Shown: piece by piece, positions 11,388 to 37,441 of the stretch
Layout: the number at the start of each line of letters is the position of its first letter
Numbering within the stretch: the stretch's first letter is position 1
Origin: a bacterium
Lineage (GTDB): Bacteria > Patescibacteriota > CPR2 > UBA1875 > JAJYID01
DNA length: 37,851 nt
Direction of reading: 5' to 3'
Assembly (NCBI GenBank): GCA_030647205.1
Contig: JAUSJO010000002.1
Span: forward strand, 75,261 to 113,111
Translations under genes and position numbers: made by a program
Notes under the pieces: generated by a model
What the model saw: only the letters and a program-made list of their open reading frames with translations
Told to the model about the DNA's origin: nothing
The model's database searches: none

Positions 11388-11428
11388 TTATACATAAAAG
11401 TTTGTCTATTTCATGCTAAAATGGGTAT

Positions 11429-11580
11429 ATGAAAAAGCAGAAATTTGTTGTTTTTGATGGCAATGCTATTGTCCATCGTGCATATCACGCTATGCCGCCG
11501 ATGACGACCAAAAAAGGCGAGCTGATAAATGCCGTTTACGGCTACTCTTCGATGATGCTCAAGGTTTTGACCGAGCTGAA
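11429..11580 (+). pseudogene. truncated duplicate of the polA 5' end (first 152 nt)
   Basis: 148/152 identical to 14380-14531 (read by eye), homology begins at the ATG; 4 differences, all third codon positions. Confidence 0.95.
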
Positions 11581-14367: not shown

Positions 14368-14379
14368 ATTAGAGAATTT

Positions 14380-17118
14380 ATGAAAAAGCAGAAATTTGTT
14401 GTTTTTGACGGCAACGCTATTGTCCATCGGGCATATCACGCTATGCCGCCGATGACGACCAAAAAAGGCGAGCTGATAAATGCCGTTTACGGCTATTCTT
14501 CGATGATGCTCAAGGTTTTGACCGAGCTGAAACCGGACTACGTGGCGGTGGCTTTTGACATGGCAGCGCCGACATTTAGGCACGTTGAGTTTAAAGATTA
14601 CAAAGCGACCCGGGTGAAGGGGCCGGACGATTTGTATGAGCAGTTCGAGCGGGTTCGCGAGGTGACGGAGGCGCTAAACATCCCTATTTTTGAGAAAAAA
14701 GGATTTGAAGCGGATGATGTTATCGGAACATTATCTTGCGAGGCGCCGAAAGACGTTGAAACGATTATCGTGACAGGTGATCTTGATGAGCTGCAGCTAG
14801 TTAACGACAAGACGAAAGTGTATACGATGAAACGGGGATTTTCAGATACGATTCTTTATGACGTGGCAGCGGTTGAGGAGAAGTACGGTTTCGGGCCTGA
14901 CAAATTCGTAGATTATAAAGCTTTGAAAGGCGATCCGTCAGATAACATCCCCGGGGTGGCCGGCGTTGGAGATGTTTCAGCTAAGAATTTAATTATAAAA
15001 TATGATTCTGTTGAAAATATCTATAAACATCTGGACGAGATAACCGGCTCTTTGAAAACAAAACTGGAAGAGGGGAAAGAAAGCGCGATTTTATCCAAAA
15101 GATTATCAAAAATAGTTTGCGATGTGCCGCTAAAGCTAGATTTGAGAGAGTGCTGCACTCATGACTTTGACCGGCAGAAAGTTTTCACTCTTTTTCAGGA
15201 GCTCGGATTTAAGTCCTTATTGAATAGACTACCGAAGGAACAGCTCCAGCAAGGTCTTTTTACAGAGGAAGAACCGAAAAAGGACAAAATTCATATAGAA
15301 AAAGCGGATTACAAGATTATTACCGAAGAGAAAGATTTGGAGAAGCTGGTTAAAGATTTCTCAAAAGAAAAACTTGTCTCGGTTGACACTGAAACGACCT
15401 CGCAAATCGCCATGGAAGCGGAACTGGTTGGCATTTCTATGAGCAAAAAAGAGGGTGAGGCATTTTATATACCGGTTGGTCACAGTGAAGGCAAACAACT
15501 TGATAAGAAATTAGTGCTGGAAAAACTACGCCCGATGCTTGAAAGCGAGTCGGTCAAAAAGGTCGGGCATAACCTCAAATATGATTACATTGTTTTCAAA
15601 AATGCCGGAGTAACTTTAAACGGGATTTACTTTGACACAATGATAGTTGCCTATCTTTTGAACCAAAATATCCGTTCGCCGAAACTCGACGACGTGGCTT
15701 TTGCCGAAATTGGCATCGAAATGATTCACATCCAGGAGATTATCGGAAAAGGCAAAGACGAGATCAACTTTAAAGACACAAAAATCGAGGATGCATACAA
15801 ATATGCCTGCGAAGATGCCGATGTGGCGCTTCGCCTGTACAACCATTTACGGGAAGAGCTGGGCGAGAAGAATCAAAAAGGTTTGTATGAGCAGATCGAG
15901 GCGCCCTTAATCCCAATCCTCGCCGAGATAGAGATGGCGGGGGTTTTGGTTGACGGAAAAGTTTTGGAAGATAGTTCTAAAAAAACAGGAACGAGAATTG
16001 ATAAGTTAGAAAAGGAAATTTATAAACTTGGCGGGGGCGAGTTTAACATCAACTCTCCTTCTCAGCTCCAAGTAATTCTTTTTGAGAAGTTGAATTTACA
16101 AGATAAAATCGAGGACAAGCGAGAACTAAAAAAGCTAAAAAGTGGCGGGTACTCAACGGGCGCCGGAGAACTTGATAAACTTGCCGGGACTCATAAAATC
16201 ATCGAGAAGATTTCCGAGTACCGCGAGCTTTCAAAGCTGAAATCCACTTATCTTGATTCGCTGCCAAAACTTATTAATCCAAAAACCGGCCGGATTCACA
16301 CTTCGTTTAATCAGGCGATAACGGCAACGGGACGGCTCTCATCCAGCGACCCAAATCTCCAAAACATCCCGGTCCGGACCGATGAGGGCAAAGAAATCAG
16401 GAAGGCTTTCATGGTGCCGGAGGGCAAAAAAATGTTGGCTGTCGACTACTCTCAAATAGAGTTGCGTGTGGTTGCGCATGTTTCCGGCGACAAAGTGATG
16501 ACGGAAACGTTCAAACGCGACGAAGACATCCATACGGCAACGGCGGCGAAAGTTTATGGCGTGAAAGAGAGCGAGGTAACTTCCGCGATGCGCCGGAATG
16601 CAAAAGCGGTGAACTTCGGGATTATTTACGGTGTTAGCCCGCATGGCTTGAAGCAAACAACGGGGATGAGCTATGAGGAGGCGCGCGACTTTATAAACAA
16701 ATATTTCAAAGTTCACACGGGGATTCAAAAATACACTGAGGAAATCGTCGAAGTAGCGAAAAAGGTCGGTTATGTCGATACGCTTTTTGGTAGACGCAGA
16801 TACCTGCCCGAGATTAGCTCTAGTAACTTTGCCGTTCGCGGACAAGCCGAGAGAATGGCTCTAAATATGCCAATCCAAGGAACGGCTGCGGACTTGATAA
16901 AACTTGCCATGATAGAGATAGCCAAAGATTTGCCGAAGATTTCCCCTGAAACGAAAATGATACTTCAGGTTCATGACGAACTCGTCTTTGAGGTGCCGGA
17001 AGCCGATGTCAAAAAAGTTTCTGGTTTTGTAACGGAAAAAATGGACAATGTCATCAAACTCTCGGTACCGATTACAGCAGTGGCTTCGACCGGCAACAAC
17101 TGGGCCGAGTGCAAGTAA
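14380..17118 (+). CDS. polA: DNA polymerase I (5' nuclease, 3'-5' exonuclease and polymerase domains)
   Basis: 5' nuclease FDGNAIVHRAYHAMP; exo VSVDTETTSQIAMEAELVGISMS; pol MLAVDYSQIELRVVAHVSGD, RRNAKAVNFGIIYGVSPHGL, LQVHDELVFEVP. Confidence 0.98.
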   Translation: MKKQKFVVFDGNAIVHRAYHAMPPMTTKKGELINAVYGYSSMMLKVLTELKPDYVAVAFDMAAPTFRHVEFKDYKATRVKGPDDLYEQFERVREVTEALNIPIFEKKGFEADDVIGTLSCEAPKDVETIIVTGDLDELQLVNDKTKVYTMKRGFSDTILYDVAAVEEKYGFGPDKFVDYKALKGDPSDNIPGVAGVGDVSAKNLIIKYDSVENIYKHLDEITGSLKTKLEEGKESAILSKRLSKIVCDVPLKLDLRECCTHDFDRQKVFTLFQELGFKSLLNRLPKEQLQQGLFTEEEPKKDKIHIEKADYKIITEEKDLEKLVKDFSKEKLVSVDTETTSQIAMEAELVGISMSKKEGEAFYIPVGHSEGKQLDKKLVLEKLRPMLESESVKKVGHNLKYDYIVFKNAGVTLNGIYFDTMIVAYLLNQNIRSPKLDDVAFAEIGIEMIHIQEIIGKGKDEINFKDTKIEDAYKYACEDADVALRLYNHLREELGEKNQKGLYEQIEAPLIPILAEIEMAGVLVDGKVLEDSSKKTGTRIDKLEKEIYKLGGGEFNINSPSQLQVILFEKLNLQDKIEDKRELKKLKSGGYSTGAGELDKLAGTHKIIEKISEYRELSKLKSTYLDSLPKLINPKTGRIHTSFNQAITATGRLSSSDPNLQNIPVRTDEGKEIRKAFMVPEGKKMLAVDYSQIELRVVAHVSGDKVMTETFKRDEDIHTATAAKVYGVKESEVTSAMRRNAKAVNFGIIYGVSPHGLKQTTGMSYEEARDFINKYFKVHTGIQKYTEEIVEVAKKVGYVDTLFGRRRYLPEISSSNFAVRGQAERMALNMPIQGTAADLIKLAMIEIAKDLPKISPETKMILQVHDELVFEVPEADVKKVSGFVTEKMDNVIKLSVPITAVASTGNNWAECK

Positions 17119-18096: not shown

Positions 18097-18528
18097 ATGG
18101 GTAAAAAGATATTATATCGGACAGGGAAAAACAGAGTCGTTGCCGGCGTTTGCGGTGGAACGGCCGAATATTTTGACATAGATCCGGGAATAATTCGGGT
18201 TCTATGGCTTTTATCTGTACTGGCGGCTGGAGCAGGCATTTGGGCATACCTCGTAGCTTGGTTAATAGTTCCTGAAAGTCCCGAAGGAGGTAGGAAACAT
18301 TTCAGAATGAATAGTAAAATAGAAGTAAAAAAAGAGAAAAAGAATATGCCGGAAGGATTATCGTTGCACGGAAAGAGCTCTGTTTTTGGGCTTTCTCTAA
18401 TGATAATCGGCGTAATATTTCTGGCAAATAACTTTCTTCCTCAGCTTCGGCTTGATAAATATTGGCCGATTATACCTATAGCTCTCGGGCTAGTTTTAAT
18501 TTTCTCAAGTTATAATCATAAAAAATGA
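18097..18528 (+). CDS. PspC-domain membrane protein
   Basis: KKILYRTGKNRVVAGVCGGTAEYFDIDPGIIRVLWLLSVLAAGAGIWAYLVAWLIVPE; ORF open from 18001. Confidence 0.9.
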   Translation: MGKKILYRTGKNRVVAGVCGGTAEYFDIDPGIIRVLWLLSVLAAGAGIWAYLVAWLIVPESPEGGRKHFRMNSKIEVKKEKKNMPEGLSLHGKSSVFGLSLMIIGVIFLANNFLPQLRLDKYWPIIPIALGLVLIFSSYNHKK

Positions 18529-32503: not shown

Positions 32504-32968
32504 ATGGAAATAAGAAAAGCTAAACTTGAAGATTTTGAAGAGATAAAAAAACTATCTTATAAGTTGATGGTTAATGAGACGAAGTTTGAGCCATCCTTTC
32601 AGCCTGAGTATGCTAAAACTGAGCATTCCGATAATTATTTAAAAGGCAAGATGGAATCAGAAAGTGCTCTTTTCCTAGTGGCTGAGCAAGAGGGAAAACT
32701 TATTGGTTTCCTGATTGGCACGGTTTATCCCAGTCCGAAAGCAAGACAGAGTGTTACCCCGGCCGTTTTGGACAATATTTATATTGATACCGCCCATAGA
32801 AATAAAGGTGTTGGTAAAGGGTTATTAGAAGGATTTCAAGCTTGGGCGAAGGGGAAGGGCTCAAACAAATTAAGACTTGGTGTTCATCACAAAAATGATG
32901 AGGCAATAAGGTTTTATAAGAATTTTGGTTTCTCAGATTTCTACTTAAAGTTAGAGAAGGATATATGA
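32504..32968 (+). CDS. GNAT-family N-acetyltransferase
   Basis: LDNIYIDTAHRNKGVGKGLLEGFQAWAKGKGSNKLRLGVHHKNDEAIRFYKNFGF. Confidence 0.9.
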   Translation: MEIRKAKLEDFEEIKKLSYKLMVNETKFEPSFQPEYAKTEHSDNYLKGKMESESALFLVAEQEGKLIGFLIGTVYPSPKARQSVTPAVLDNIYIDTAHRNKGVGKGLLEGFQAWAKGKGSNKLRLGVHHKNDEAIRFYKNFGFSDFYLKLEKDI

Positions 32969-33450
32969 AAGTAGCGGTTTTTAGTGATGTGCATGATAAT
33001 CTATTGCGTTGGCGAGAAGCGGCGGAGATTATTCGTGCTGAAAAAATAAAGGTTGGCTTTTGTTGTGGGGATATCGGTGACCTGCAGACTGTGGAAGAAG
33101 TCGCTAAATCCTTTGAAACTCTATATTTGGCGCTTGGAAATCTTGATTTTAAGATTAAAAATATGACAGGTCTCTTTCCTGAAAATGTGATTTTTGCCCG
33201 AGATTATGGTGAGATTGAGCTCAAAAAAGTGAAGATTGCCTATGTTCATAGCAAACACATTGCGAAACAACTGGCCGAGTCGGGTAAATATGACATAGTT
33301 TTTTATGGTCATACCCATACTCCATGGGAGGAAAAGGTTGGCAGCACAGTGCTCTTAAACCCCGGTGAGGTCGCCGGGCACTTCGGAAAAGCCTCTTTTG
33401 CTATATATGACCTAAGAAAAATGAAGGCGGAGCTCAAGCTCTTGACATGA
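32965..33450 (+). CDS. YfcE/MJ0936-family metallophosphoesterase
   Basis: MKVAVFSDVHDN, CGDIGD, LGNLD, FYGHTHTPWEEKVGSTVLLNPGEV; ATGA overlap with the GNAT gene. Confidence 0.92.
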   Translation: MKVAVFSDVHDNLLRWREAAEIIRAEKIKVGFCCGDIGDLQTVEEVAKSFETLYLALGNLDFKIKNMTGLFPENVIFARDYGEIELKKVKIAYVHSKHIAKQLAESGKYDIVFYGHTHTPWEEKVGSTVLLNPGEVAGHFGKASFAIYDLRKMKAELKLLT

Positions 33451-33480
33451 TCTCAGAAACAACATAAAAAATATTGACAA
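33409..33480 (+). repeat. 72-bp direct repeat, copy 1 (3' end of metallophosphoesterase gene plus -35 box)
   Basis: ~60/72 matches by eye to 34122-34193. Confidence 0.85.
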
Positions 33481-33502
33481 TCAATGGCTATTATGTTAAA
33501 GT
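33474..33502 (+). promoter_or_regulatory. promoter TTGACA-17-TAAAGT for the 33672 ORF
   Basis: consensus -35 with 17-bp spacer. Confidence 0.6.
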
Positions 33503-33671
33503 GTCTTAGTTAACTTTTATGGTTAACTTTTGTATCTTGAAGTTTTTACATTCTATATTGCCTCATTTAGAGTACATACTCTGAGTCCGGAGCGGGTGCA
33601 AGAAGTGCGCTCTAGATTTGTCTAAGTATGAACATATCAATAGAACAACTAGACAGAGGGAGGTGAATTAA

Positions 33672-34034
33672 TTGAGTATTCATCGTAACAGCACCGGAGG
33701 AGTCATTGAAGATGTGAATGGCCACGATATCAGTCAGGGGGAGCTTTTTACGGTCGAGAGTGGAAAGACCTACTGCACGGCTTGTCGTTCGCTCCCTTCA
33801 CATATCAGTGATAGGTCCTACGATAGCTCTGGCGACTCTGCTTTGGGCATCGACCCTATTATGACTCTGGTTATGCTGGATCTGATTCTTGACGACTCAC
33901 AGCCAGATATCTCGGACATTGATAATGATCCGAGTCCAGACAACAATGGCACGGATGGCTGTGATAGCGGCAACTTCGACGATGGTTCCAGCGACTTCGG
34001 TAGTGACTGTGGTGACAGCGGATCCGGTGACTGA
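33672..34034 (+). CDS. hypothetical small protein with CxxC and low-complexity Asp/Ser/Gly-rich acidic tail (TTG start)
   Basis: gggaggtg RBS; YCTACRS...; tail DDSQPDISDIDNDPSPDNNGTDGCDSGNFDDGSSDFGSDCGDSGSGD. Confidence 0.6.
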   Translation: MSIHRNSTGGVIEDVNGHDISQGELFTVESGKTYCTACRSLPSHISDRSYDSSGDSALGIDPIMTLVMLDLILDDSQPDISDIDNDPSPDNNGTDGCDSGNFDDGSSDFGSDCGDSGSGD

Positions 34035-34074
34035 TATCACCTCTCTGTTGGCAAAATCGATATAGATGTAAGGA

Positions 34075-34115
34075 AAAGGGCCCTGGCTTTTTATACAGGG
34101 CCCTTTATTTTTTTT
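34075..34115 (+). terminator. intrinsic terminator AAAGGGCCCTG ... CAGGGCCCTTTATTTTTTTT
   Basis: 11-bp stem plus T-tract. Confidence 0.88.
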
Positions 34116-34121
34116 AATACA

Positions 34122-34193
34122 GACTTAGCAAAAATGAAGGCAGAGCTTAAGCTCTTAATATAATCTCAAAAATAGCATAAAAAGTATTGACAA
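34122..34193 (+). repeat. 72-bp direct repeat, copy 2 (remnant ...AKMKAELKLLI* plus -35 box)
   Basis: matches 33409-33480; C-terminal coding end conserved. Confidence 0.85.
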
Positions 34194-34215
34194 ATTATCT
34201 TTTGTTTAGTATAAT
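34187..34215 (+). promoter_or_regulatory. consensus promoter TTGACA-17-TATAAT for the TelA operon
   Basis: perfect -35 and -10 with 17-bp spacing. Confidence 0.85.
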
Positions 34216-34447: not shown

Positions 34448-34987
34448 GTGAAATTGATTCTGTTAGTGGTGGTTTTATTGCTGGTTGTGGGGGTGACAAT
34501 AGTCATCCTTAGAGCACGAAGCAAGAAGGAAACGACCGTAGGTGAAGTGCCTCGGCCGGTAGCTGAAAAAAAGACAGAGGATTTGTCGGAGAAGATAAGC
34601 GGCCAGATTTCCAATCTGACTGACTTACTGCTCAAAATGAAGATCAAGAAGGTTGACCAGGAAGTCTGCGATATGGTTTCGGACATCGTAAGGAAACTTA
34701 TGATTGTCTTGCCGAAAGCGGCTTCCGGATACCCAGGGTCAGAAATGAGCTGGGTTACGGGGAGAGTGGCCGATGGCTATATCCCCGAGCTTGTCAATCC
34801 GTACGTCGATCTATCGCAGAGCGGACGGAGCGAAAAGAAGGAGGCCCTGGTAGGGACCCTCAAAGACATCGACGGGAAGCTGTCAGAAATAGGCAGCTCC
34901 CTTGATACTGGGGACGCCCTCAAGTTCGAAAGTCAAGTTGCATACCTGAAGAAAATGTTGTCAACGGCATCAATCGAAGCCATATAA
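34448..34987 (+). CDS. membrane-anchored hypothetical protein (179 aa, GTG start)
   Basis: gaggagga RBS; single N-terminal TM LILLVVVLLLVVGVTIVIL then soluble helical region. Confidence 0.65.
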   Translation: MKLILLVVVLLLVVGVTIVILRARSKKETTVGEVPRPVAEKKTEDLSEKISGQISNLTDLLLKMKIKKVDQEVCDMVSDIVRKLMIVLPKAASGYPGSEMSWVTGRVADGYIPELVNPYVDLSQSGRSEKKEALVGTLKDIDGKLSEIGSSLDTGDALKFESQVAYLKKMLSTASIEAI

Positions 34988-35003: not shown

Positions 35004-36245
35004 ATGACCGAAGTAACAGCAGATACTCAGACAAGTACCGCTCTCGCAGTACCGCCCCTCGCAACCCAGGCCATGAATGTTTCGGCAGTGAAGGAAGTCC
35101 AGAAGCCGATGGGACAAACGATTGTTCCCGAGGTTCCGGATGGCATGACGCCCGAAATGGCGGCATCCCTGAAGGAACAGTCGGCCCAGTGGGTAGCGCA
35201 GATAATGGCGATGCCCGGAGATCAGGATCTTCTCGAGAAGGTAGCAACCCTCGGTATCGAGGCACAGCAGTCGGCCGGCCAGAGCATAGAGCTCTTAAAG
35301 GCCCCGATCAACAGCATCATCAATCCCCCGAAGCTTGGGGACCAGGAAGCCCCGGACTCTCTTATGGGTCTGAGGAAAATGGCAGATCGGCTTGATCCGG
35401 CGAAGATTGCCGAGCCTACCTTTTTCGAAAGGTTGATGGGCATATTCCCGCCGTTTGCACGCAAACAGCTGGAGCGGTCTATCACCCGAATCCAGGAGCA
35501 GACCAACTCGGCTGATGATGAGATCAACAGCATCCTCTACAGTTTGAGGAGTGCCGCTGAGACCATTATGAAGAGTAACACTGAGATCGACATAATCGTG
35601 AAAGATCTCAAGCCGAGTCTCGAGCGCGTCAAGGGCACCGGATATCTCTGCGAAGAGATGATGGCCTCCCTGGGACAGGAGTATGAGAAGCTGGCCGATG
35701 ATGATCCGAAGAAGGGGCAGCTGATTAACTTCAGTACCTATCTGTCGTCCAGATATCTCGACTTCAATAGTATGCGGGAGCTGTATAATCAGCTGCTGAT
35801 CGGCCTTTCGACGGCTAGGCAGAACAATGTTGTTCGTGCCATCAGTCTGAGAAGGACGATTGATGTAGCTGGTCCGGCGCTCCGCATCGGTACCGCCCTC
35901 CAGATCATTAACATGCAGCAGGAGCAGGCGGCCGCAATGGATCGGGCGACCCGTGACTTTGTTGCGGATCTTACAGTCCGTAACGCTGAGGCAGTTAGCG
36001 AAGGCCAGAGGAAGGCGATGCAAGACCTCTCCTCTGCTGCCCTCAACATCGAAAAGATGAAAGTGGCACATAACACGTTGATCCAGGCAATGGACGAGCG
36101 CGATCAGCTGCAGCTGCAGGTGATCCAGGTCGCAAGGGACAACGCGGTGGCCTTTAAGGCAATGGCTGAGGAACTGGAAGCAAGGCAGAACGCCGTAAAG
36201 CTTCCGGAGAAAGCAGCCTTAAACTCGATCGAAGCGAAGATCTGA
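35004..36245 (+). CDS. TelA-family (toxic anion resistance) protein
   Basis: long helical protein, IDIIVKDLKPSLERVKGTGYLCEEM...SISLRRTIDVAGPALRIGTALQII-type region and C-terminal helices match the TelA pattern. Confidence 0.8.
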   Translation: MTEVTADTQTSTALAVPPLATQAMNVSAVKEVQKPMGQTIVPEVPDGMTPEMAASLKEQSAQWVAQIMAMPGDQDLLEKVATLGIEAQQSAGQSIELLKAPINSIINPPKLGDQEAPDSLMGLRKMADRLDPAKIAEPTFFERLMGIFPPFARKQLERSITRIQEQTNSADDEINSILYSLRSAAETIMKSNTEIDIIVKDLKPSLERVKGTGYLCEEMMASLGQEYEKLADDDPKKGQLINFSTYLSSRYLDFNSMRELYNQLLIGLSTARQNNVVRAISLRRTIDVAGPALRIGTALQIINMQQEQAAAMDRATRDFVADLTVRNAEAVSEGQRKAMQDLSSAALNIEKMKVAHNTLIQAMDERDQLQLQVIQVARDNAVAFKAMAEELEARQNAVKLPEKAALNSIEAKI

Positions 36246-36246
36246 A

Positions 36247-36834
36247 ATGGAAACAGTAATCGATCCTGCAGTTGTGAAACGGTTTGAGGCCGTTTCGGCG
36301 CTGCCTCCACTTCTTCCCGAAGACCAGCGGCGAAACCACTCTATAACGGATGTTCGTCCCGGCGGTTGCATAACCGTCGGCGCGACTCCCTACAGGGTGT
36401 TGGAGCGCTACTGGTATACGGAAGACAGCTACGTTTGGTACGAGGTTCAGCTCTATAATCTCGCGACCGGCGAAATCACTTACCTCGAATGGGAGATAGA
36501 TGATGAGCTGGAAGTGTTCATAGAGAGCGAACGTCTGTCCAACCTCGCAGATGCGAACCTGACTCCGTCAAAACTGACGGAGATGGACGACGAAGAAACC
36601 GGTACAGTTACCTACAACGGTAACACCTACTCATACGATGACAGTGGCATAGCCACTTTCTATCGCAAAGAAGGTGATCCCGGGCAGGAGGTAAAGTACT
36701 GGGATCTTGTCGGACCCTCAGGAATGCTCATGGGTGTAGAGAAGTGGGATGACGGATATACGATTTCAATATCGATTCCCGTAAATCCCCTCTCCATCCA
36801 AGTCCTACTCGTAGGAGGAACTAATGCAAACTAG
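36247..36834 (+). CDS. DUF4178-like protein
   Basis: RPGGCITVGATPYRVLERYWYTEDSYVWYEVQLYNLATGEITYLEWEIDDELEVF...YWDLVGPSGMLMGVEKW. Confidence 0.65.
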   Translation: METVIDPAVVKRFEAVSALPPLLPEDQRRNHSITDVRPGGCITVGATPYRVLERYWYTEDSYVWYEVQLYNLATGEITYLEWEIDDELEVFIESERLSNLADANLTPSKLTEMDDEETGTVTYNGNTYSYDDSGIATFYRKEGDPGQEVKYWDLVGPSGMLMGVEKWDDGYTISISIPVNPLSIQVLLVGGTNAN

Positions 36835-37441
36835 CGAACTGTCCTATAAGGATCAGTCCGCCAGTGACCTTCGTTTGGGCGTAGTCGGTGGTGACATCGA
36901 CTGCGCCCAGTTTCAAATTGTTGGGCAAGAGACTTTTGAGGCAGACTCCGGTTTGCTAGTTGATGCCAAGATCATTGGTGCAAGCCATGTTCTGGCGTTT
37001 AACTATGCCGGTATCGCCGTTAATGAGGTCTTAGCCTGCATGGAAATACAGGAGACAGACAGAGCCTTTGGGGGACTCATGAAAGATTTAGAGGGTCCCA
37101 TTGAGCTTGAGTTCCAAGGAGGAGAAGACAAGTTGATGTACAAGTTTGTTTATCATCTTGTTGATACTCGGCTACATGCCGGGGATCTTTTTTCTTTCAA
37201 GGATGAGATAGTCTCCGGGCGAAGGCGCGGGTTGATCTTCGAGTTTCCGGATAAAAACCGCGAGAAAATAACAGCAATGACTCTCATTGCCGTTGACTGC
37301 CATGAAGGTATGGACGGAGTCAGTATTGAGACCGGACATATTTATCCGCAGGAATTTCTAGCGGTAATCACCCGGACAGTAATAAGACCATCAATCAGGA
37401 GGGAAAACAGATGCTTAAGCAGCGCTTGCTCCAAAAAGTAA
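36824..37441 (+). CDS. DUF2617-like protein
   Basis: SASDLRLGV...AKIIGASHVLAF...YKFVYHLVD...GLIFEFPDKNREKITAMTLIAVDCHEGMDGVSIETGHIYPQEFLAVITRTVI; overlaps previous gene by 11 bp, RBS ggaggaact. Confidence 0.55.
   Translation: MQTSELSYKDQSASDLRLGVVGGDIDCAQFQIVGQETFEADSGLLVDAKIIGASHVLAFNYAGIAVNEVLACMEIQETDRAFGGLMKDLEGPIELEFQGGEDKLMYKFVYHLVDTRLHAGDLFSFKDEIVSGRRRGLIFEFPDKNREKITAMTLIAVDCHEGMDGVSIETGHIYPQEFLAVITRTVIRPSIRRENRCLSSACSKK

Follow-up and report, generated by a model that had tools for sequence, protein, structure and literature searches.

The window analysed here, a whole stretch of 37,851 nucleotides, lies in a contig of 428,588 bases from a Patescibacteria-type genome, assigned through relatives labelled Patescibacteria and Ca. 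Buchananbacteria, and the reading was extended past it in a 16-kb stretch (L027). Near its right-hand end, a metallophosphoesterase gene (MPE) is followed by a single small gene, by a second copy of the MPE 3' end and by an operon that includes a TelA family gene. These features are listed below; scores in bits come from a weight matrix built on MPE gene ends.

32965..33450, + strand: metallophosphoesterase gene (MPE, Metallophos_2; ORF list, Pfam 5e-27), the host gene, with the insertion point at its 3' end
33409..33480, + strand: copy 1, functional MPE 3' end and the 30 nt up to TTGACA (38.6 bits)
33474..33502, + strand: promoter-like site of cassette 1, TTGACA-17-TAAAGT (10/12 match)
33672..34034, + strand: cargo gene of cassette 1, 120 aa (ORF list)
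34075..34117, + strand: intrinsic terminator closing cassette 1, GGGCCCTG/CAGGGCCC stem and T tract (sequence, fold)
34122..34193, + strand: copy 2, relic MPE 3' end (LAKMKAELKLLI, then stop) and the shared 30 nt (36.6 bits)
34187..34215, + strand: consensus promoter of the TelA operon, TTGACA-17-TATAAT, supplied by copy 2 (12/12 match)
34448..34987, + strand: first gene of the TelA insert, 179 aa, with an N-terminal hydrophobic segment (ORF and family searches)
35004..36245, + strand: TelA family gene, second insert (Pfam 1.4e-23)
36247..36834, + strand: DUF4178 gene, second insert (Pfam)
36824..37441, + strand: DUF2617 gene, second insert (Pfam)

The left copy consists of the last 14 codons of MPE (DLRKMKAELKLLT, then stop) and of 30 nt ending in TTGACAA. 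The initial annotation had described 33409-33480 and 34122-34193 as repeats of about 60/72 identity, and an ungapped alignment gives exactly this value (83%). When a 101-nt repeat query is searched against the 1.02-Mb genome, only two places match, copy 2 with an E-value of 6.8e-16. The similarity of copy 2 to MPE sets in abruptly 42 nt before the stop and ends after TTGACAA; 17 of 21 positions match between -42 and -21, against 6 of 21 between -63 and -42.

It had also been proposed that the copies enclose one gene with its own leader and a strong terminator, and that the right copy provides a consensus promoter for the TelA operon; both proposals are borne out. The 120-aa ORF of cassette 1 has a TTG start preceded by GGAGG and lies downstream of the promoter-like site. 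Its terminator folds at -21.2 kcal/mol (z -3.5), with a T tract after the stem, and the promoter carried by copy 2 matches the consensus at all 12 positions. The 120-aa protein contains Cys residues and an acidic tail rich in D, S and G; searches of Pfam, NCBIfam, PHROGs, viral contigs and 379 genomes of the phylum gave neither a family nor a relative for it. An Rfam search of the region returned no RNA family.

The TelA insert runs beyond the window, with genes for a 513-aa protein, a DUF350 protein, a spermine-synthase-domain protein and a 104-aa protein. The only relative of its 179-aa protein in 286 genomes is encoded in the same genome, beside tRNA-Asp. This protein is absent from the plasmids searched, in which TelA itself is rare (one weak record), and no donor for the TelA insert was found.

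The interval between MPE and the uracil-DNA glycosylase gene (UDG) was compared across eight genomes, the relatives being of the same family and order. This site is variable, from 0.1 to 10.8 kb: it is near-empty in G003 (254 nt) and G012 (99 nt), measures 359 nt in G009 and about 0.95-1 kb in G001 and G005, and reaches 8.8 kb in G004, 9.9 kb in G002 and 10.8 kb in the window genome (G000). In G003, the UDG promoter (TTGACA...TATACT) directly follows the MPE stop, and the UDG upstream/promoter region of the window genome aligns to that of G001 over 131 nt without gaps. From these comparisons, the ancestral neighbour of MPE is UDG. As the site is vacant or almost vacant in several relatives and the UDG promoter is retained, the TelA operon is itself an insert, as foreign to the site as cassette 1, and the MPE-TelA junction is not ancestral. 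The initial annotation had taken this junction as the original one and suggested a search for its uninterrupted form in relatives; the search points instead to an ancestral MPE-UDG junction, to the TelA operon as another insert and to at least three stacked insertions.

The inserts have a foreign composition. Indeed, GC3 shifts at the third MPE end described below: relative to all genes of the genome, those of cassette 1 and of the TelA insert rank at the 89th-99.7th percentile, and those of an array of small paralogues further downstream at the 0-23rd. The alleles at the MPE locus are mosaic among relatives; for example, UDG of G002 and G004 are at 75%, though these genomes belong to the same genus. 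A swap of MPE itself in the window genome was checked with identity matrices, which give no clear case; the MPE of G001 is the outlier.

A weight matrix built from the last 39 nt of nine MPE genes was scanned over the 16-kb L027. The last ~40 nt of MPE recur two more times outside the window, 8.7 and 10.5 kb downstream:

L027:11410-11448: relic 3 (whole copy at L027:11396-11447), MKAEFKILK, then stop (34.9 bits)
L027:13138-13176: relic 4, MKAGLKILR, then stop (26.8 bits)

The four ends thus score 38.6 (MPE), 36.6 (copy 2, hereafter also relic 2), 34.9 and 26.8 bits; the best score was 18.9 bits in 100 simulated 16-kb sequences and also 18.9 bits at any unrelated position of 11 real loci. Relics 2, 3 and 4 each start about 39-42 nt before the stop, which makes them worn copies of the final 13-14 codons of MPE, and the relics are preceded by T tracts. 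Relic 3 sits after the terminator of the 104-aa gene, the last of the TelA insert, and relic 4 provides the 3' end of gene five in an array of small membrane-protein paralogues. An independent relic is present in the related genome G002; it scores 31.8 bits, lies 716 nt behind the MPE of that genome and has its boundary at -63.

The sequences that follow the older relics differ from that shared by copies 1 and 2. The 60 nt after relic 4 match those after the functional MPE of the sister genome G001 (score 50, shuffled maximum 27), in which a small gene of the array type begins directly after MPE. The post-stop sequence of relic 3 resembles that of G002, a match that is weak when taken alone (score 22, shuffled 95% level 19, maximum 23). 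From these alignments, the relics are best read as ends that MPE formerly had, each accompanied by what was then its neighbour. A dif half-site was also considered for the stretch that follows relic 3 (TTATGTTAAAT); this was dropped, as the stretch corresponds to the start of a coding sequence that has the same start in G002.

The array itself (L027:11451-13487) comprises six divergent small membrane-protein-like genes of 103-123 aa in tandem, and five of the six were tested against Pfam, without any family being found. Relatives of these genes are also located directly behind MPE in G001 and G002.

Read from MPE outwards, cassette 1 is separated by relic 2 from the TelA/polyamine-type operon and the 104-aa gene; relic 3 then leads to five small membrane-protein genes, and relic 4 to a last gene of this kind, which precedes UDG. 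This layout implies at least three serial additions, the newest, judging age from position, being nearest to MPE: the paralogue array (before relic 4), then the TelA insert (before relic 3), then cassette 1 (before relic 2).

The initial annotation had suggested that cassette insertion between gene-end repeats is recurrent and is mirrored at polA, and the polA locus of the window supports this:

11428..11580, + strand: truncated polA 5' end, 153 nt, adjoining native polA upstream sequence (sequence comparison)
14379..14531, + strand: intact polA 5' end with foreign upstream sequence, 97% identical to the truncated copy

The left copy is truncated after nucleotide 153 of the gene, and the native upstream region common to G003 is found only at this copy. 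About 2.8 kb of small unknown genes separate the two copies.

The genome-wide scan for other gene-end duplications that had been suggested was run on C3 and C4 1-393000 (~420 kb, about 40% of the genome) and yielded two more places, tRNA-Asp and tRNA-His. Both display serial copies of the gene end and of the terminator/promoter that follows it, with unrelated genes between them. The tRNA-Asp copies (C3:10592-10672, 16330-16408 and 18191-18231) are 79-83% identical; in the second, no more than the final 6 nt of the tRNA are included. The module that follows tRNA-Asp is native, being present once in G003. The tRNA-His copies are located at C4:199611, 200413 and 201748. The first and second tRNA-Asp copies enclose the paralogue of the 179-aa protein of the TelA insert, near a gene with a von Willebrand domain. 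This speaks for a common source of the inserts found at different gene ends, without proving it.

How did these layers arise? We favour, with a probability of about 0.5, a series of additive insertions in which the MPE 3' end is formed anew each time, the likeliest route being a single crossover with a circular DNA that carries an MPE end. The MPE 3' end would be an additive insertion site, used at least three times. Each incoming DNA, kin or foreign in origin and circular or recircularised, would bring its own MPE 3' end together with new genes and would recombine by a Campbell-type event through the short MPE-end homology. Each time, the new arrival would complete MPE with the end that it carried, and the end that MPE had until then would be pushed downstream as a relic. 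The length of the repeats would reflect the homology carried by the donor, no special enzyme would be needed, and the same process would operate at polA with homology at the 5' end of the gene. We infer all the steps of this insertion chemistry. MPE and the older cargo should remain expressible, since both cassette 1 and the TelA insert possess a promoter of their own and are closed by a terminator.

The truncation of copy 2 at -42 fits direct repeats with one truncated copy, as predicted by a single crossover, although other models predict the same. In Escherichia coli, recircularised linear plasmid DNA integrated by single crossover generated partial gene duplications of 109-950 bp at the insert (PMC3240628). 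Several points speak against the single crossover. Repeats of 40-72 bp at ~83% identity are short for RecA-mediated recombination, and neither a donor circle nor an excised form was seen. Furthermore, the starts of relics 2-4 nearly coincide, more closely than arbitrary breaks would lead one to expect. This speaks for a site-specific process; the boundary of the G002 relic (-63) departs, however, from these starts (-39 to -42). As the repeats have diverged, the events are old and the recombination chemistry is not directly readable.

A site-specific recombination is the possibility that competes best, although we lean against it. The MPE 3' end would serve as an attachment site for cassettes devoid of integrase, and a recombinase would act in trans, tentatively the single tyrosine recombinase of the genome or one provided by a phage or an integrative element. 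Besides the nearly constant start of relics 2-4, rebuilt gene 3' ends with displaced ends stacked downstream are a hallmark of tRNA and tmRNA islands. However, no integrase, recombinase or transposase was recognised among the Pfam matches of any insert, and the genome, which is 98.6% complete, encodes one tyrosine recombinase (C4:163500-164042, ~55 kb away from the array) and no resolvase that could be found. The different boundary of the G002 relic, a polA repeat that is 153 nt long and located at a 5' end, and relics without a demonstrated att core also fit this process poorly.

A homology-facilitated illegitimate recombination of linear DNA acquired by natural transformation appears distinctly unlikely. 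It would involve, on the left, a homologous crossover in MPE and, on the right, end joining inside the resident MPE end, probably at a T-rich microhomology between the terminator T tract of the cassette and a T-rich stretch of MPE. The T tracts that precede the relics, the same but inverted topology at polA and the mosaic alleles of the locus agree with such events, and competence via ComEC is described for Patescibacteria (PMC12455944). In the data of PMC3240628, however, true events of this type led to deletions and the duplications came from circles; moreover, a right-hand joint that recurs at a near-identical position is unexpected.

The initial annotation had also envisaged that the end was duplicated in tandem and its cargo then replaced, a local process without acquisition, which the 30 nt shared by copies 1 and 2 past the stop could recall. 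This is very improbable, since the older relics hold other MPE-end alleles with their own downstream sequences, that of relic 4 matching G001, and since the inserts differ in composition and relatives lack them at this site. Chance similarity, the background explanation that had been named as the refutation of the repeat, draws on nothing but the AT-richness of the flanks and is practically negligible given the genome-wide E-value of copy 2 (about 7e-16) and the weight-matrix controls.

The search for recombinases also bears on how the locus is classified. It displays the features of additive islands, that is a variable site and displaced gene ends. An integrase was looked for in the inserts and none was found; therefore, the locus is not called an integrase-type island. 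The features of a transposon with target-site duplication are also lacking, as no transposase appears among the Pfam matches and the flanks of the TelA insert differ after the stop.

In integron arrays, single genes are added beside a fixed site, the newest being nearest to it. The MPE locus resembles them in these respects. It differs by the cassettes having their own promoters, by the repeat being the end of a coding gene and by the absence of any integron integrase found beside the array, the sole tyrosine recombinase of the genome being ~55 kb off. A recombinase-free, gene-end-directed stacking of cassettes common to the MPE 3' end, the polA 5' end and the tRNA-Asp and tRNA-His 3' ends, with an integron-like outcome without integrase, is a rather doubtful extension of our reading. 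If true, such stacking would always rebuild its target gene and add self-contained promoter-gene-terminator units.

Arrangements similar to the MPE locus are found among genomic islands. In Dehalococcoides, tandem islands are bordered by 20-bp ssrA repeats (PMC3146451); as at MPE, they are stacked downstream of one gene, with displaced 3'-end copies as borders and a cargo that varies among strains. However, their target is a tmRNA gene rather than a protein gene, the MPE repeats are longer (40-72 nt) and diverged (83% and less), and the ssrA islands carry an integration module with the serine recombinase DsiB, whereas no integration module was found in the MPE inserts. Likewise, the additive flexible genomic islands of Alteromonas grow by addition of cassettes (PMC5217437) and fGI-2 of Methylophilaceae contains repeats of the last 20 nt of tRNA-Lys (PMC10872708). 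Growth by cassettes at one site, gene-end repeats and a mostly unknown cargo are common to these islands and to the MPE locus, which differs by its target, a protein-gene 3' end, by its Patescibacteria-type genome and by incoming DNA that would bring its own MPE end. According to the abstracts of the corresponding reports, islands also occur in protein genes, at the dusA 5' end (PMC4482086) and, for PAISt, at the bacA 3' end (PMC4057263), SGI1 at the trmE 3' end being named in PMC8409611. Such insertions at a 5' gene end (dusA) or at a 3' gene end are the counterparts of polA and MPE, respectively; however, as far as these abstracts go, such islands encode an integrase or move by site-specific recombination, neither of which was found at MPE. 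The MPE locus is therefore a variant of additive genomic islands or tandem accretion, on account of its protein-gene target in a Patescibacteria-type genome, its four legible layers and the absence of a recombinase.

How very small bacterial genomes gain genes is an open question, mobile elements being few in them. The MPE locus offers a layered record in which each scar tells what was acquired and at which stage, and partly also the type of relative that it came from. Furthermore, a gene-end relic beside an intact gene is a simple signature that can be looked for across genomes of this kind, no integrase being needed to guide the search.

Several minor observations concern other repeats. At C4:199540-205120, tRNA-His is followed by three to five similar terminator-promoter modules that separate small genes; two of these modules are preceded by a common motif of ~20 nt (CTGACATCGCTAACTA), and part of the arrangement is present in G004. 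A dispersed family of intergenic repeats of 150-225 nt is found at C4:122151, 136597, 164497, 167158 and 176272 and at C3:1 and 5759; its members contain CCACTTTTTTAGAAAAAGTGGAGTAAAAAT or its complement, and several adjoin short palindromes of the GTCATTCCCGC type. Finally, MPE of G002 (L032) and G004 (L033) carries, at about codon 66, an in-frame insertion of roughly 35-45 residues (in G002 LDSRLRSSSLSDEAQ...GNDKESGDDRN), which resembles a translated dispersed palindromic repeat.
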